Assembly: GCA_030145625.1 (NCBI GenBank)
Contig: JAQYVF010000005.1
Location: 25,312 to 89,311, forward strand
From: Desulfocapsa sp.
Lineage (GTDB): Bacteria; Desulfobacterota; Desulfobulbia; Desulfobulbales; Desulfocapsaceae
Length of the DNA: 64,000 nucleotides
Direction: 5' to 3'
The first letter of the stretch is position 1. Each line of letters starts with the position of its first letter. The notes below the pieces were generated by a model. That model was not told the DNA's origin, searched no databases, and saw only the letters and a list, made by a program, of their open reading frames with translations. Both the position numbers and the translations under genes were made by a program. Of the stretch, positions 1,749 through 64,000 are shown in pieces.

Positions 1749-2963
1749 TCAGAAGAGGTGTTGACCATACTTCACGGCCTCAAGATAGGCCTCGCCCAGG
1801 CCATCCGTCATCACCCCGGTTTTTTGCAGGATATCCAGACTTTCCCGGCATTCCCCACGCTCATACCTTTCCACGGCCTCAAGAATTGAGACATAGGGAC
1901 CGGTCCTGGAAACAAGGACATCCTTCACCTCATCGGCCAGCGGCATTTGCTCCATGAGTTCTTTCATGGGCTTGTCCAGCATGGCATCAATTAGTGAAAA
2001 AAGCCCCACAAGAAACAACTCCCCGGATTTTTTCCGAAAAGGCCCCTGTTCGGCAAGCAGTTCACAAAATTTGGCCCGTACCACAGCAAGGCGTACCAGT
2101 TCTTCCGGCTTATCACTGGCAATCTCGGAGATGAGCACGAGAAGAACAAAACGTCGAAACCGCTTAGCACCCAAAAAAACAATGGCCCTGGAAACCGACT
2201 CTACGTTCTCCAGAAGATAGAAATGAGCCGAGTTGAGATAGCGAAGAAGCTTATAACTCAGGGCCACATCAGCAGAAACAATCTGTTCCAACCGGGCAAT
2301 AGTTGTCGTTTTCTGGCTCACCTCGGCCAAAAGTCGAAGCAGATTGACCTTAACCGAAGTCAATTCCTGGATACGGATCAATTCTGGTTTACTGAAAAAG
2401 AACCCTTGGAAATAATGAAATCCTAGTTTCAGTGCCTTTTCAAATTCATCATAAGTCTCCACCTTTTCCGCCAACAGCTTCAAATGGTCAAAACGGGCCA
2501 GGCGATGCAGCATCTTATGGACACCATCCACAGGAGTCAGGGTAAAGTCGACCTTGACGATATCGGCAAGGGCCAGGAGAGGATCAAACCGATGATGATA
2601 GACAAAATCATCGAGAGCCAGGGTATATCCTTCCTTTTTGATCCGACGACAGGCCTCTACAATGGCGGGAGTCGGCTCAACATCTTCGAGGATTTCAACT
2701 ACCAGCCGATTTTTAGGGAAAGCGACCGGAATATTTTTCAGAAGTAATTTTTCAGGAAAATTGACAAAGCAGGGTTTTGAACCGGTAATTTTTTCTATCC
2801 CTTCGGTGAGGAAAGTACTACTGAGAAGAGAAGTGGTGGCTCTGTTCCCCTCGGTATTCTCCAGGTTCCATTCTTCTGTCCCCCGGTACAGGAGTTCATA
2901 AGCATAGAGTCGCTTGTTAAAAGAGAAAATTGGCTGCCTGGCAATGCAAAATTCCACATCCAC
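1749..2963 (-). CDS. EAL and HDOD domain signal transduction protein
   Basis: N-terminal FCIARQPIFSFNKRLYAYELLYRG (EAL-like) and C-terminal HDOD region (DVALSYKLLRYLNSAHF). Confidence 0.9.
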   Translation of the reverse strand: MDVEFCIARQPIFSFNKRLYAYELLYRGTEEWNLENTEGNRATTSLLSSTFLTEGIEKITGSKPCFVNFPEKLLLKNIPVAFPKNRLVVEILEDVEPTPAIVEACRRIKKEGYTLALDDFVYHHRFDPLLALADIVKVDFTLTPVDGVHKMLHRLARFDHLKLLAEKVETYDEFEKALKLGFHYFQGFFFSKPELIRIQELTSVKVNLLRLLAEVSQKTTTIARLEQIVSADVALSYKLLRYLNSAHFYLLENVESVSRAIVFLGAKRFRRFVLLVLISEIASDKPEELVRLAVVRAKFCELLAEQGPFRKKSGELFLVGLFSLIDAMLDKPMKELMEQMPLADEVKDVLVSRTGPYVSILEAVERYERGECRESLDILQKTGVMTDGLGEAYLEAVKYGQHLF

Positions 2964-3267
2964 CTCCGGTACAAAACCATAAAATTACATCCAATGGCTA
3001 CCTTGAAAATTCTGGAAACCACGGGGACATGTAAACCAGGAAGTACCAAGAGTCACCAGGTACAACTTCCATAACGAATTCCTGGGGCCATCATGGAAAG
3101 ACCAGGCCACCTCACTTCAAAAACAGATGAAGAAAACACAAAAAAAGGCAGTACTATCTTTCCAACAAACTTTTTTTCCTGTGTCTCAGGAAACCTAATC
3201 CGTCAATAGAGATGATATCAGGTGAGCTTTGCGAAAGTCAATATTCTGTGGATAAATAGAATGGATC

Positions 3268-4617
3268 TCATTTCTTCTTTTTTTTGTCCCGATTTTTATC
3301 ACGTATAAAAAGCTGGAGAGGAACCTTGTCCAAACCGAGACCGTCACGAAATCTGTTTACCAGATACCGTTCATAAGAAAAATGGACACCCTTCGAGCTG
3401 TTGCTCATGACCACAAATTTTGGCGGACGACTGCCCACCTGGGAGGTGTAATAAAATTTAAGCCGCTTATTCTTATAAATGGGAGGCGAATGAGCCTCCA
3501 CCGCATCCTGCAGCAACCTGTTCAAGGCCGCAGTGGGAAAGCTTGCAGTAAACTGCTTAAAAACAGAACCAATGACAGGAAAAAGGCGCTTAATTCCATA
3601 CCCCGTAAGTGCTGAAGCAGTCAGCAGTGGAGCAAATCCAACAAAGGGAGCAGCAAGGGCAATCTCAGCCATAATCTGCTCCTGGCGTATTTTATCGTCT
3701 TGGACCAGGTCCCATTTATTAACTAAAAGAATCAATCCCCTACCCTGTTCTTGGGTATAGCCGATCACTTTGGTATCCTGCTCAGTAATGCCTTCACTTG
3801 CATCGATGAGCACTACTGCGATATCACATTTTTCCAGAGCCGCCAACGCCTTGAGAATACTAAATTTTTCCAGCTTCTCCGTGGTTTTCCCCTTTCTCCT
3901 AATCCCGGCAGTATCGATAAGCAGATAGTTATATTTACCGTAACTGAGCAAGGTATCTACAGAATCCCTGGTTGTACCCGAGACCTCGGAGACCACCATA
4001 CGTTCCTGCCCCAGGATCTGATTGATCATAGAGGACTTGCCAACATTGGGACGACCAAAAAAGGCAATCTTAATAGTTCCCTCCGGCAGATCGACTTCCT
4101 CATCATTTGCCTGCAGACTATCCTCCAGCCCATTCATAAGGTCAGTAAAACCATATTTATGTTCAGCCGACAGGGGCCAAAACCGATCAACACCAAGCTC
4201 ATAAAACTGGTACAGCTGCTCTTCTTCCTGTTCCGGGCCATCGATCTTATTAACCACATAAAAGATGGTCTTTTCGGTGCGGCGTAAAAGATTGGTCACT
4301 TCCTTATCTGCAGGAGTCACTCCCTCTCTGCCGTCGAGGAGAAAGAGAATAATATCGGCCTCTTCAATGGCTGCCATGGCCTGATCCCGAATATGATCCC
4401 CCATGACATCACCACTACTGTCTTCGATGCCGCCGGTATCAACCAGCATAAAGAGGTTATCATTCCATACCACCTTTTCATAGTGGCGATCACGGGTCAC
4501 ACCTGGGGTAGGATCAACCAAAGCCTTTCTTGACCGGGTAATGCGGTTGAACAAGGTCGATTTTCCTACATTGGGACGTCCAACCAGAGCGACGATCGAA
4601 TGAGTTTGTGTGGGCAT
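3268..4617 (-). CDS. der: Ribosome biogenesis GTPase Der (EngA)
   Basis: Two tandem GTPase domains (GRPNVGKSTLFNRITRSRKA..DTPGVTRD and GRPNVGKSSMINQILGQERMVVSEVSGTTRD) plus KH-like C-terminus. Confidence 0.97.
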   Translation of the reverse strand: MPTQTHSIVALVGRPNVGKSTLFNRITRSRKALVDPTPGVTRDRHYEKVVWNDNLFMLVDTGGIEDSSGDVMGDHIRDQAMAAIEEADIILFLLDGREGVTPADKEVTNLLRRTEKTIFYVVNKIDGPEQEEEQLYQFYELGVDRFWPLSAEHKYGFTDLMNGLEDSLQANDEEVDLPEGTIKIAFFGRPNVGKSSMINQILGQERMVVSEVSGTTRDSVDTLLSYGKYNYLLIDTAGIRRKGKTTEKLEKFSILKALAALEKCDIAVVLIDASEGITEQDTKVIGYTQEQGRGLILLVNKWDLVQDDKIRQEQIMAEIALAAPFVGFAPLLTASALTGYGIKRLFPVIGSVFKQFTASFPTAALNRLLQDAVEAHSPPIYKNKRLKFYYTSQVGSRPPKFVVMSNSSKGVHFSYERYLVNRFRDGLGLDKVPLQLFIRDKNRDKKKKK

Positions 4618-50304: not shown

Positions 50305-51105
50305 ATGCCAAGAGCTCACAGACACTACATACCGGGATGCGTCTGGCACATCACCCACAGGTGCCATAAGCAGGAGTTCCTGCTCAATTTTGAAAAAGAC
50401 AGGAAACGACGGCGTCACTGGCTCTTTGAGCCGAAAAAACGATACGGCTTGTGTGTACTCAACTATATTGTGACCTCTAATCATGTTCACCTCTTGGTTG
50501 TCGATACTGAAGAGGACGTTATTGCCAAGAGTATGCAGTTGGTTGCCGGAAGAACCGCCCAGGAGTTTAACCAGCGCAAGCAGAGAAAAGGAGCCTTCTG
50601 GGAAGACAGGTACCATGCCACTGCGGTGTAGACAGATGAGCATCTGGCAAAATGTATTGTCTATATCGATCTCAACATGGTGCGGGCAGGAGTGGTTAGA
50701 CATCCCTCTGAATACAGGTTAAGCGGGTTCAATGAAATCCAGAATCCACCAAAACGATATGCAGTGATTGACAGGAAGGTTCTACAGGATCTTTTTTCCA
50801 TAGACAATCAAGAGGGTTTCCGACAGGAGCATAAGCACTGGGTGGAAACAGAGTTACAGGCTGATGTAAAGAAAAGAAAGGGCCTTTGGAGCGAATCAAT
50901 TGCGATTGGCAGCGAGGGTTTTACAGACAAGATACAGCAGCAACTTGGCTTACGAGCCAAGGGGCGCTCGGTTGTCTCAGAGAAGGAAGGGACTGCTCTG
51001 AAGGAGGCTTCTGCCCCTTACAATACACTTTTTGATGGTAAAAAGAGTACTCTAAGGCCTAACAATAGCTATTTTATTGACTTAAATGACAGTAATTCAG
51101 ACTGA
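50305..51105 (+). pseudogene. REP-associated tyrosine transposase (Y1_Tnp/RAYT) interrupted by in-frame TAG
   Basis: MPRAHRHYIPGCVWHITHRCHKQEFLLNF..NHVHLLVVDTEEDVIAKSMQLVAGRTAQEFNQRKQRKGAFWEDRYHATAV*TDEHLAKCIVYIDLNMVRAGVVRHPSEYR; both halves in the same frame, stop at 50629-50631. Confidence 0.88.
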
Positions 51106-56791: not shown

Positions 56792-58729
56792 ATGTCCGAT
56801 ATCCACAACGTCAAACTGGAAATTTTGCGACCCGGCCCGGCGCACAACCAGCTTCTTTCTCCGCTTACTCCCTACCTCGTCCTCTGCGGTGCCGACGGAC
56901 CGGTGAGCGTGAGCCTGCCTTTTGAACAGCGGCAGCTGCGCATTCGCCTGGAACGGCTCCGTTATTTTACGGAAGGAACAGATGTTCCCCCCAACCAACG
57001 TGAGGCCGAGCTGCGCGAATTGGGGGAGACCATCGGGCAGATGTTCGGCCAGGTCCCCGCACTGCTTACCGAACTGGGCAGTGTCCGAGCCCAGAAGGGA
57101 AAGTTTGTGCATCTGCGACTGTCGCTGTCCGCCTCCGAACTTGCTCTTTTGCCCTTTGAGACAGCCATCGCCCCGGATGGCTTTCCCGGCTCCGGTTCGC
57201 CGCTTTTTCTGCAATCCAAGACCCCCATTACCCTGACCAGGGAGGTACGTCGCGGCCGACCACTGCCTGTGGAATGGAATCGTCCACCCCGCATTCTCTT
57301 CATCTGTGCCTCGCCTGACGGGTTGGCCCAAGTGCCCGCAAAGCAGCACCTGGTCGCCCTGCGCCGCGCCATTGACCCATGGGTGAAAATCAAGAATAGT
57401 GAGGAAGAGCGCCTGGCCGAGGTGAAAAAAATCCTCACCATACTGCCGGAAGCAACGCTTGAACAAATCCGCCAGACCTGCATGGACACGGAATACACCC
57501 ATGTCCATATCCTGGCCCACGGCGCCCGCTATGAGCATGCCGGAGACCAGCGCTACGGCCTTGCCTTGTGCAGCAGCTCAAACCCGGCAGAGATTGATGT
57601 GGTTGACGGCGAACGACTTGCCATCGCCCTCACTACGGACCGCGCTTTGACCTGCAGCACTCGGCATCGACCAACCATACTCTCGCTTGCCACCTGTGAT
57701 TCCGCAAATGTGAACTCCGTGCTCACCCCCGGTGGCAGCATAGCTCACGAGTTGCACGCAGCCGGTATCCCCTGGGTTTTTGCCTCCCAGTTTCCTCTCT
57801 GGATGCGCTCCTCGAACATCTTCACTGAAGTACTGTACAAACGTTTACTCAAAGGGGCCGATCCCCGCTGCGTCCTCCATGAATTGCGACAACGTCTGCG
57901 CACCGCCTGCCCGGAGACACACGACTGGGCTAGTATTGTAGCCTATGCTACCGTGCCCTGGAATTTTGAAAAACAGGTCAGCGATTTTCGTGATAAACAG
58001 ACCCGCGGGCGCATCGAAACTAAATTCGACCGGATCGACGATCTGCTCAAGGAAAAAAAATCCAATGATCTCGATAAGCAATCGTTATCACCGGAAATAG
58101 GTGATCTCTGTGATGTCATCCGTCGGGAACTCCAGGCATGGCGGGAAGAACCTGAGGCACAATCCTGCGGGAAAGAACTTGCCGAACGTCTGGGAGTCAG
58201 TGCTGCCAGCGAAAAGCGGATGGGCATCACTTATGAGCCCGTCCCCAACAAGGCAAAAGAAAAACTAGACGCCTATCAAACGGCCTGCCAGTTCTATAAA
58301 AAAGCCATCGAAGCCGATATCTCAAATCATTGGGTCATTACCCAATATCTGTCAATGCTCGCGGTCACAAAACTGGCAAAAGGCCGTGGTTTGTCAGGAT
58401 TGGCAAGAGATTATGGGCATTGGTGGCATGCTGCTCGACAAATCAGCCACTGGCAGTTGCCCGCAGCAGTGGGGATAGAACGGGCCTGGGCATACGGAAC
58501 ACTGGCTGAACTAGAAATGTTGGGTGCTGTTTATGGAGGCAGAAAATACAAAGCAGAGGAAGCCAAAAAGACAATCATCCATTACTGTAAGGAAATTATG
58601 GAAATCTATGGTCCGCAGGATTTTCCTGTACAATCAACCGTGCGGCAATTCCGCCGCTATGCTGATATCTGGAAACAGGAAAAATGGGATAATCTTGCCC
58701 GGGCCGCGCTTGACGTCCTCGGTTCATAG
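56792..58729 (+). CDS. CHAT-domain (caspase-like) protease with C-terminal helical/TPR-like region
   Basis: Catalytic dyad THVHILAHGARY (His243) and PTILSLATCDSAN (Cys302), IAHELHAAGIPWVFASQFPLW; 4 bp after the MPE stop. Confidence 0.9.
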   Translation: MSDIHNVKLEILRPGPAHNQLLSPLTPYLVLCGADGPVSVSLPFEQRQLRIRLERLRYFTEGTDVPPNQREAELRELGETIGQMFGQVPALLTELGSVRAQKGKFVHLRLSLSASELALLPFETAIAPDGFPGSGSPLFLQSKTPITLTREVRRGRPLPVEWNRPPRILFICASPDGLAQVPAKQHLVALRRAIDPWVKIKNSEEERLAEVKKILTILPEATLEQIRQTCMDTEYTHVHILAHGARYEHAGDQRYGLALCSSSNPAEIDVVDGERLAIALTTDRALTCSTRHRPTILSLATCDSANVNSVLTPGGSIAHELHAAGIPWVFASQFPLWMRSSNIFTEVLYKRLLKGADPRCVLHELRQRLRTACPETHDWASIVAYATVPWNFEKQVSDFRDKQTRGRIETKFDRIDDLLKEKKSNDLDKQSLSPEIGDLCDVIRRELQAWREEPEAQSCGKELAERLGVSAASEKRMGITYEPVPNKAKEKLDAYQTACQFYKKAIEADISNHWVITQYLSMLAVTKLAKGRGLSGLARDYGHWWHAARQISHWQLPAAVGIERAWAYGTLAELEMLGAVYGGRKYKAEEAKKTIIHYCKEIMEIYGPQDFPVQSTVRQFRRYADIWKQEKWDNLARAALDVLGS

Positions 58730-58857
58730 TAATATATCATCTCATATCCATCAGACCTGGAACCGATTCATCTTGAATTCCTCTCATGATCAGCTTCAGA
58801 TAACAGGAATTGCAGGCAAGGAACAATGAAGGGAAGCAACTGGACAAAGGAGAATTC

Positions 58858-59175
58858 TTGAGCACGACAAGACAGAAGGTTGAGACCCCTTTCGGCGACT
58901 ACGAGCCGCAAATCGCGAGTCATGACGAACTTGCGCGCGCCGCTTCAATAATGGGCGACACGGTGGAGGCAATCGCCAGGATCAACCATGATCAGTGGGC
59001 TGCAGAGAGGATTGCCCAGGGGTGGCGTTACGGAACACAACGGGATGACTCCAGGAAACTGCATCCAGGACTTATTCCCTATGACCGACTAACGGAAGAG
59101 GAAAAACGAATCGACGTGGAAGGTGCCAAGGCTATCGTTGCCGAACTGATCAGGCTTGAAATCCTTCATACATAA
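58858..59175 (+). CDS. RyR-domain protein
   Basis: TTG start preceded by GGAG; INHDQWAAERIAQGWRYGTQRDDSRKLHPGLIPYDRLTEEEKRIDVEGAKAIVAELIRL is a canonical RyR repeat. Confidence 0.88.
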   Translation: MSTTRQKVETPFGDYEPQIASHDELARAASIMGDTVEAIARINHDQWAAERIAQGWRYGTQRDDSRKLHPGLIPYDRLTEEEKRIDVEGAKAIVAELIRLEILHT

Positions 59176-59249: not shown

Positions 59250-60002
59250 GCATAATCGGGATAGAAAGGGGTTTTTTATCCCCCCTCCTCCCACACCAAC
59301 CGGCATGCGGGTCCGCACCGGGCGGTTACCAAGAGTGTCGGATCGTAATCGGACAAGCCAACCAAAGGGAACCCATTTTGATTAACTTTGAAAATTCCAT
59401 TTCCATTACCGCGCCTAAGAACTCTTATGTGAACCAGTCGGCTCATACTGAGGATAGAGCATAATGGGGAATTTTCTCTCTTGGCTTCAGGCCTTCGCTT
59501 CATCAAACATGAATCCACTACTATGCCTTCTGCTGACTTCTGCCCAATCACCCCATGCATTACTACAGGAGGCGCTACCATCTGATGGTCGCAAAGTCGG
59601 GCAGATCTCCCCGGGCTCAGTTCAGTACCCCCTTGAGGGGTGTAAGAACATGATCCTTCCCTGCACAACTGCCGCATTTACCATCTCCCATGTTCTCCAG
59701 ACGGGTTTCGTGATGTTGTGCTCACTCACCCAGGGGTTCGGCCTTATATGCGGTTTCTGTCCGTCAGCTCGCAGGTTTGCACTTAGGCTTCTTTCAAACG
59801 GTCGGTCGCCCTTCCGCCCTTGCCATCGGCTAGTACTTTTAAAAGGTGACACTTTGTCTCCTTCCTGGAATATGTACAGGGGACTTACACCCCATAAAAT
59901 CATGCCCATGCCGGGCACACACAATCACATTCACTCGGACATCAAAAAGCGTCGCTCGTTCCTCGCTCTGCTTTTTGATACCGGTGATGTGTAGCGTTAT
60001 GT
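59250..60002 (+). other. Integron attC site F, interrupted by the intron at 59255-59920
   Basis: Joining 59250-59254 to 59921-60002 gives GCATAACaatCACATtCACtCGGacATCAAAAAGCgtcg...GCTTTTTGATaCCGGTGATGTGtagcGTTATGT: R''/R' boxes and a long stem with bulged bases. Confidence 0.8.
59255..59920 (-). mobile_element. ORF-less (~666 bp) group II intron inserted in the bottom strand of an attC site
   Basis: Minus strand begins GTGTGCCCGGCATGGGC (GUGYG-type 5' end at 59920), ...GGTGTAAGTCCCCTGTACA..., and ends with DV/DVI-like ...ACCGCCCGGTGCGGACCCGCATGCCGGTTGGTGTGGGAGG...CTATCCCGAT. Flanks on that strand are ...GATTGT | TATGCGTC.... No RT ORF. Confidence 0.75.
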
Positions 60003-60028
60003 GAGACCGCAGAATGAACAGAGGTAAT

Positions 60029-61186
60029 ATGAAAAATATTCTTGATTGTACTGGTCATAAACTAAAGATCCTCAATATCTTAGATAGCAATGGAGTATAT
60101 TTGTTTGATGCTCAGGGAAAGAGATACATGGATTTGGAGTCAGGGATATGGTGCACATCTCTGGGACACAAAAATGTCAGAATTAACAATGTGATCAAAA
60201 AACAACTTGATAGCATCATGCATGCTGGGTTTTGCTATAGCAGTGAGATAGTAGATAACGCAGCGAAATCAATTTTGTCAGTAACAGGTTTGAAAAATGG
60301 GCGATGCGTATTTCTTAGTTCTGGAAGCGAGGCTGTAGAAATACTTAGGCAAGCAGCTAGGCATTCGGTAAAAACCCCAAAAACGCTGGTTTTGCATAAT
60401 GCTGAGCTTGGTGCGTATGATTCACTTACAGATAGAAAGCATGGATGGTACGGCTTTGAATGGAAAAATTGTGAGGAATGTACAGACAGCATTATATGCG
60501 ATCTGCACAGTGAAGCACTTAATAATATCCCTGAAGATGTCACTGAGTTCATCTTTGAACCAGGAAGTGATGCTGGCCTTGTAGGCTTTCCTCCCAAAGC
60601 ATTGATTCAGAAAATTGCCAGCTTGGTTCGCAGTAATGGTGGTAAAATAATCGCAAATGAAGTTACGACAGGAATCGGGCGTACAGGTAAATGGTTTGGC
60701 TATCAACACTACGATATAAAGCCGGATATGATTGCTCTTGGGAAAGGTATTGGAAATGGTTATCCTGTAAGTGTTGCTGTATTCTCCGAGAATACCACAA
60801 GTGAATTAGATACTTTTAAATACTCGCAGAGTCATCAGAATGATCCAATGGGAGCAGCTGTTGCAAATGAAGTTATTAACATAATAAAAGATCGTGATCT
60901 AATTAAAGATGCTGCGAGAAAAGGAAAGATTTTTATTTCTCAACTCAAATCCCTAGAAAGAAGCAATATAAAAATTCGTGGAAGAGGATTGATGTTCGCC
61001 ATTGATTTTATGAATGAGAAGACAGCAGAGAAAATATACAGTGAGCTGATAGAAAGCGGATATATTGTATGTAACAGAGGTTCTTTTCTTAGAATTGATC
61101 CGCCTCTCACAATAACTGAAGATGAGTATGGGGAATTCATTACCACACTCTCTTCTATAGTAGATCGAGAGATGATTTTCACATAA
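60029..61186 (+). CDS. Class III (PLP) aminotransferase
   Basis: MDLESGIWCTSLGHKNVRINNVI, FLSSGSEAVEILRQAAR, GGKIIANEVTTGIGRTGKWFGYQHYDIKPDMIALGKGIGNGYPVS. Confidence 0.9.
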   Translation: MKNILDCTGHKLKILNILDSNGVYLFDAQGKRYMDLESGIWCTSLGHKNVRINNVIKKQLDSIMHAGFCYSSEIVDNAAKSILSVTGLKNGRCVFLSSGSEAVEILRQAARHSVKTPKTLVLHNAELGAYDSLTDRKHGWYGFEWKNCEECTDSIICDLHSEALNNIPEDVTEFIFEPGSDAGLVGFPPKALIQKIASLVRSNGGKIIANEVTTGIGRTGKWFGYQHYDIKPDMIALGKGIGNGYPVSVAVFSENTTSELDTFKYSQSHQNDPMGAAVANEVINIIKDRDLIKDAARKGKIFISQLKSLERSNIKIRGRGLMFAIDFMNEKTAEKIYSELIESGYIVCNRGSFLRIDPPLTITEDEYGEFITTLSSIVDREMIFT

Positions 61187-61267
61187 CAATAACATGCACT
61201 CAGATATATTTATATAGTGTTTGACTATGCCTGGTTACAATCACCTAAAAAGAATACGGAGAAGAAA

Positions 61268-61608: not shown

Positions 61609-61740
61609 ATCTAACAAAGGTATCAAGAGGGACTTGCAGGCAGCGCGGTTTTCCGAAACTCGGCCATGTTAACAAGCGCACCGGTAACCCGAACATGGTT
61701 GCTACAAACTCCCGCAAGCCCCTTATACCGGCCGTTAAAC
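61609..61740 (+). other. Integron attC site H (132 bp)
   Basis: R'' ATCTAAC (exact RYYYAAC) and R' GTTAAAC (exact GTTRRRY); arms aaaGGTATcAAGaGGGaCTTGC / GCAAGCCCCTTATACCggcc pair with three extrahelical bases. Confidence 0.85.
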
Positions 61741-63867: not shown

Positions 63868-64000
63868 AATGCACCGGGTGCGACCTGAAAGTCGCCTCTT
63901 TTATTGCTGACCTATGAGTCAGCCTGCCGTTTCGTCGGCAGTTTTCTATCCCGGCACGCATAGCTGGTAACGGCTTTGTGTGAAGCCCGGGTGACAATGA
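63868..64000 (+). mobile_element. Possible 5' portion of a second group II intron, running off the window
   Basis: gtgcgacctgaaagtcgcctcttttattgctgacctatgagtcagcctgccg...ggtaacggctttgtgtgaagcccgggtgacaatga resembles a GUGCG-type intron 5' end and domain I helices. Confidence 0.4.

Follow-up and report, generated by a model that had tools for sequence, protein, structure and literature searches.

The window analysed here, a 64,000-nt stretch of a Desulfocapsa sp. contig, carries near its right end what looks like a decayed integron cassette array, one attC site of which is split by a group II intron that lacks a reverse transcriptase (RT). The features at this locus are as follows.

58810–59175, + strand: RyR-domain gene, upstream of the attC; paired with a CHAT gene (56792–58729) in relatives without this attC
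59250–59254, + strand: GCATA, left piece of the split attC R'' box; on the intron strand the 3' exon starts TATGC
59255–59920, − strand: ORF-less group IIC-attC intron, 666 nt, 5' GTGTGCCCGGC ... CTATCCCGAT 3'
59255–59294, − strand: J5/6 and domain VI with bulged A; 3' end CCCGAT
59295–59327, − strand: domain V; CGC triad at 59324–59322, and U at 59299 where a G should pair with the last C of the triad
59411–59460, − strand: retained domain IVa hairpin; in relatives with an RT, it overlaps the start codon of the RT gene
59490–59574, − strand: ribozyme stretch from the domain I core to domain IV (RF01998, group-II-D1D4-1; Rfam match)
59616–59642, − strand: 27-nt insertion of a dispersed palindromic repeat (CACCCCTCAAGGGGGTACTGAACTGAG), missing at this point in L188 and L196
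59647–59815, − strand: domain I core (RF02001, group-II-D1D4-3; Rfam match)
59716–59719, − strand: putative EBS1 (ACAA) in domain I, complementary to IBS1; placed from the D1D4-3 alignment
59921–59924, − strand: IBS1 (TTGT), end of the 5' exon
59921–60002, + strand: right part of the attC (AC of R'', L'' and L' arms, R' box GTTATGT at 59996–60002), recognised from homologous uninterrupted attC sites
60014–61186, + strand: class III aminotransferase, probably a gene cassette, starting 11 bases past R'
61180–61205, + strand: left half of a second attC of the same type (CACATAACAATAACATGCACTCAGAT), from comparison with homologous attC sites
61609–61740, + strand: likely third attC (R'' ATCTAAC, R' GTTAAAC, folding z −2.5)

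The half attC comes after the aminotransferase gene, and the integron integrase genes of this genome are located on other contigs. At 56792–59175, the gene for a CHAT-domain protease-like protein adjoins the RyR-domain gene, and the pair is kept as chromosomal neighbours in two relatives (CHAT identity 89% and 80%), both of which are without the attC.

Read on the minus strand from 59920 to 59255, the element is an intact 666-nt group II intron, GTGTG...CCCGAT, with both ends present. Its domain I core matches group-II-D1D4-3 with 127.3 bits (E 1.3e-27), and the stretch leading to domain IV matches group-II-D1D4-1 with 62.7 bits. The Rfam model of domains V and VI (RF00029) matches 59255–59327 on the minus strand with 31.8 bits (E 3.9e-4), under the gathering score of 40, and the match ends exactly at 59255; the same cut-off is missed by an intact RT-bearing relative (L064). 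A domain V/VI covariance model made from 30 relatives gives 77.4 bits, a match by construction, since the window intron is among the 30. The sub-threshold RF00029 score is what could be said for a chance resemblance, or for some unrelated insertion into attC, with no group II intron present. That reading is refuted by the D1D4-3 E value, by the covariation described below and by dozens of homologues with the same ends, and we give it practically no credence. Domain V has the CGC triad, one pair of which is C•U, and an AU bulge, in keeping with the AY expected of the class; domain VI has a bulged A, and the 3' end, AT, fits the AY rule. Pairing of EBS1 with IBS1 would be short (ACAA/TTGT, with the position of EBS1 taken from the alignment), and a stem-loop lies upstream in place of IBS2. 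The longest frame inside the intron encodes 133 amino acids and has no Pfam or NCBIfam match. A preliminary description of this DNA had called the element a group II intron ending exactly at 59255 and 59920 and lacking an RT; the three Rfam matches, the Infernal placement of the domain V/VI end on the proposed 3' boundary, the full-length RT-bearing relatives with the same ends, and the absence of any RT family match bear this out. The element is an ORF-less derivative of a group IIC-attC intron rather than a full autonomous member.

Comparison with relatives confirms the window intron as a member of the known group IIC-attC family (PMC7923331). Relatives with and without an RT have common boundaries, ..GT/GTACGCCC...CCCGAT/T, and an RT-bearing intron in a class 1 integron region of Vibrio cholerae (NZ_CP007636), beside sul1, qacEdelta1 and aadA16, has the same ends as the window intron. 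The 5' exon ends in TTGT at 29/39 sites and in TGGT at 6/39, and the next base is T at 36/39. An alignment of domains V and VI from 30 introns supports the CGC triad, the AU bulge and the bulged A of domain VI with strong covariation; domain V has 39 compensatory cells compared with 11.1 in shuffles (0/500 shuffles as high). In the ribozyme tree, the window lineage groups with introns of V. cholerae, Citrobacter, Methylocalor and Synoicihabitans (UFBoot 90). The RTs of the family, as found in relatives, have RVT_1 and GIIM domains only; it is this class C RT/maturase, free of an endonuclease domain, that the relatives encode and the window intron lacks. Several IIC-attC introns, including most of the window lineage, end in CCCTCT, that is, in CT and not the usual AY (L196, L188, L149, L173, L019, L080, L302).

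The intron lies in the attC in the manner expected of this family. Its bottom-strand junctions read GTGATTGT/GTGTGCCC...TATCCCGAT/TATGC, which places the insertion point, ATTGT/TATGC, at TTGT/T in the R'' box of the attC bottom strand, and the intron is oriented opposite to the cassette genes. With 59255–59920 excised, the flanks join as the attC-like sequence GCATAACAATCACATTC...GATGTGTAGCGTTATGT, in which GCATAAC...GTTATGT is restored with 6/7 complementarity. The rejoined 92-nt bottom strand folds at −19.8 kcal/mol compared with −9.5 ± 2.1 for dinucleotide shuffles (z −4.9). A search with the joined flanks found homologous attC sites free of the intron in the host genome itself (G000:C45, 82%) and in G009, G023, G055, G031 and others, most of them with a continuous TAAC at the insertion point. 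Thus, the restored attC arms and the TTGT/T target, both proposed from the bare sequence, hold up, and the empty sites sought as a check on them exist in the same genome and in relatives. As a group, the insertion sites of the family fold better than random TTGTT sites (p 8e-9), with 4/33 individually below 0.05. Because seven-base R'/R'' complementarity across all insertion sites did not separate them from shuffles (median p 0.6), we claim attC status site by site, and only for the window and for the C121/C97 site described below.

A deletion within domain IV removed the RT gene: a conserved motif that precedes domain IV lies 215 nt from domain V in the window intron, compared with about 1420–1450 nt in RT-bearing relatives. 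Domain IV of ORF-less introns still starts with the hairpin that overlaps the RT start codon in RT-bearing introns, which is domain IVa, and recognisable codons of the RT ends persist in many of them. In 21 ORF-less sequences, standard pairs fill 88% of the cells of the domain IVa stem and at most 49% when the arms are slid, and there are 41 double changes compared with 13.9 in shuffles (0/500 as high); for this measurement the two stem arms alone were aligned, since a whole-hairpin MAFFT alignment shifted the 5' arm. Part of this covariation may be inherited from RT-bearing ancestors and thus be older than the ORF loss. In IIA introns domain IVa is the RT-binding site (PMC2882425), and by analogy the hairpin presumably serves the same role here. 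Two other readings of these introns were rejected. First, the domain IV element is not a new RNA but domain IVa, overlapping the RT start in RT-bearing introns. Second, the ORF-less introns do not form a single clade, as RT-bearing introns are interspersed in the tree; on the sequence evidence, ORF loss occurred more than once.

The window intron is no isolated case of ORF deletion: IIC-attC introns without an ORF are common in Desulfobacterota and are present in other groups as well. In 96 related genomes, most of them, like the other genomes compared, drafts or MAGs, 24 IIC-attC introns have both ends; 10 of these are compact and ORF-less, 5 have an intact RT (at least 460 aa) and the others are partial or decayed. 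Two ORF-less copies in Desulfobulbaceae BRH_c16a, at different sites and with different exons, are 99.7% identical over 712 nt; identities between ORF-less copies are 94.9% in Syntrophaceae UBA4767, 94.5% in Desulfosudis and 92.4% in Desulfoluna. Four ORF-less copies in G013 are about 90% identical, and three have a 27-nt domain V loop insertion in common. Judged by sequence, these introns do move without an RT of their own, because some are 99.7% identical at different sites. About 27 extra bases are found in the domain V apical loop of several ORF-less IIC-attC introns (L054, L089, L090; G004:C2:55384–55479); the extension did not block copying, since the three G013 copies lie at different sites.

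These distributions also bear on whether the window intron was ever mobile in its present form. A full-length intron could have inserted here and had its RT deleted in place, leaving a dead derivative that never moved as an ORF-less element; the window copy shows visible decay (a triad mismatch and a repeat insertion), and ORF-deleted remnants at single sites are known in G030 and G007. But the same domain IV junction recurs at other sites and in other genomes, namely in G023 (C124), G039 (C101 and C2), G002 (C23) and the MAGs L188 and L196, and because independent in-place deletions would not share a junction, this reading is largely refuted and we regard it as unlikely. The two G039 copies differ at one position in 140 nt and have different 3' exons. 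L188, from a MAG labelled Gammaproteobacteria, is 90.4% identical to the window intron over 636 nt, and L196, from a MAG labelled Methylococcales, is 76% identical; L173, a near-identical fragment from the L188 sample, is labelled Nitrospirae, and binning errors are possible for single MAGs. A phage collection gave no match, and E. coli genomes just a 41-nt match, in two of them. Elsewhere in the family, Citrobacter freundii plasmid pLNU-11 (L067) carries a 554-nt ORF-deleted IIC-attC intron (1292–1845) adjoining a full-length 1914-nt one (2497–4410) that is 81% identical. At least 13 IIC-attC 3' ends occur in G102, a MAG of Ca. Synoicihabitans palmerolidicus, where three introns with 529-aa RT frames and several ORF-less copies form a natural helper/non-autonomous pair, and in the closed genome G024 (C1) a related lineage of class C introns has about 12 RT-bearing copies that are nearly identical.

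A candidate source of RT exists in the same genome. Contig C97 ends within an IIC-attC RT (C-terminal 51 aa, 71% identity), which is followed by domains V and VI and the 3' exon TCGGC, and contig C121 starts with the 5' 133 nt of an IIC-attC intron. Joining their exons creates the core GTTCGGC, perfectly matched by GCCGAAC 117 bases upstream (R'/R'' 7/7 complementary, fold z −3.9); joining C121 to C19, which has the third IIC-attC 3' end of the genome, gives no such core match. Very probably, C121 and C97 carry opposite ends of a single RT-bearing intron, the middle of which is unassembled. The preliminary description held that an RT would be needed in trans; the presence of this probable IIC-attC intron in the genome makes that plausible, and it is a possible helper. 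The 5' 136 nt of the window intron are 72% identical to it. Searches of the 96 relatives, of 251 genomes of the order of L196 (Methylococcales) and of 395 genomes of the host phylum turned up no member of the window lineage with an RT, so that any helper would need to recognise an intron that has diverged from its own. The sole other group II RT of the genome, on C175, was rejected as a helper because it belongs to another class, with ribozyme model D1D4-7 and an extra RVT_N domain. The start of a second group II intron, also of the D1D4-7 class and cut by the contig end, lies at 63923–64000 on the plus strand of the window; the RT-bearing intron on C175 matches the same ribozyme model.

The window copy itself is probably dead or weak, with splicing now impaired, because it combines the C•U triad mismatch with the 27-nt repeat insertion. 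The U at 59299, which replaces the G partner of the last triad C, occurs in the window intron only among the 30 aligned sequences, and given this mismatch the copy may not splice at present. A REP-like palindromic repeat around ACCCCTCAAGGGGGTAC is dispersed in the window (59616–59642), L003, L004, L005 and many relatives, and also lies within IIC-attC introns of G002 and G039 (L047, L061). A fragment of a Y1_Tnp transposase (PF01797) of the REP-associated kind, at 50305–50631 on the plus strand of the window, could be linked to this repeat. Alternatively, the window intron might still splice unaided, leaving the cassette array unaffected, with no helper RT in its present function. Retention of ORF-less copies in the closed genome G031 and the nearly complete genome G013, both devoid of a close IIC-attC RT, fits such a state; however, an RT must have been at work when near-identical copies arose at different sites, and the triad mismatch speaks against efficient splicing of the window copy. 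We judge this possibility very improbable.

We favour, with good confidence, a non-autonomous group IIC-attC intron that lost its RT, kept its ribozyme and domain IVa, and was moved by the RT of another intron. First, in an RT-bearing ancestor, the RT gene would have been deleted within domain IV, while the ribozyme stayed complete and the domain IVa hairpin was retained. Next, the spliced intron RNA would be bound by the RT/maturase of another IIC-attC intron; both splicing at the RNA level and use of the C121/C97 RT in trans are steps that we infer. The RNA could then recognise the folded attC bottom strand through the stem-loop and TTGT/T, with EBS1 ACAA pairing to IBS1 TTGT, and reverse-splice into it, and subsequent copying into DNA would split the attC. 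Finally, the triad mutation and the repeat insertion would have followed, probably ending activity and leaving a cassette array with one inactivated attC.

More broadly, we lean slightly towards a model in which IIC-attC introns have repeatedly become ORF-less, non-autonomous, attC-targeting retroelements, with the RT-binding hairpin under selection and with spread between genera, possibly phyla, via helper RTs; the window lineage would have diversified while ORF-less. There would be several implications. First, a parasite of a parasite would target attC sites: integron recombination sites would be put out of action by short RNA elements with a borrowed RT. Second, natural helper/ORF-less pairs could serve for testing RT specificity in class IIC. 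Finally, such introns would inactivate attC sites in chromosomal cassette arrays and escape annotation that relies on RTs.

Like S.ma.I2-type group IIC-attC introns (for example, that with ltrA WP_040118558 in V. cholerae NZ_CP007636; PMC7923331), the window intron targets TTGT/T in R'' of the attC bottom strand in an orientation opposite to the cassettes, and has a 5' GTRYGCCC, a 3' CCCGAT and the CGC triad. In contrast to them, it lacks an RT, its domain IV consists of domain IVa plus small end remnants, and it has a triad mismatch and a repeat insertion. UHB.F1, from a soda-lake metagenome (PMC7923331), is likewise an IIC-attC intron in a cassette array, but it is truncated at the 5' end and keeps RT domains, whereas the window intron is complete at both ends and has none. 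C.te.I1 of Clostridium tetani (PMC4424553) is an ORF-less bacterial intron without a related RT, as are those of G031 and G013 without a close RT; it is a single splicing-type intron that does not target attC, whereas ORF-less IIC-attC introns have recent copies. A close parallel in mechanism is the ORF-less TeI3 of Thermosynechococcus elongatus (PMC2882425), from which trans-mobilised ORF-less introns are already known: there too a deletion in domain IV took out the ORF but left domain IVa and N- and C-terminal remnants in place, breakpoints are common to copies, and proliferation depends on an RT in trans. Of the marks of a TeI3-type element, a domain IV ORF deletion with domain IVa kept and a breakpoint common to copies at different sites are found here. 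The T. elongatus introns belong to another class, use base-paired homing sites, and represent a single ORF deletion in one genome, whereas the ORF-less IIC-attC introns target attC hairpins, occur in many genera and reflect several independent ORF losses. A genome-wide count of ORF-less introns exists (PMC8919778), with attC absent from its main text, and we found no earlier report of trans-mobilised ORF-less introns in the attC class in the open-access literature searched. As far as that literature shows, a large ORF-less fraction with lineages of its own is thus a new feature of the attC-targeting class IIC introns, set beside the trans-mobilised introns of T. elongatus.
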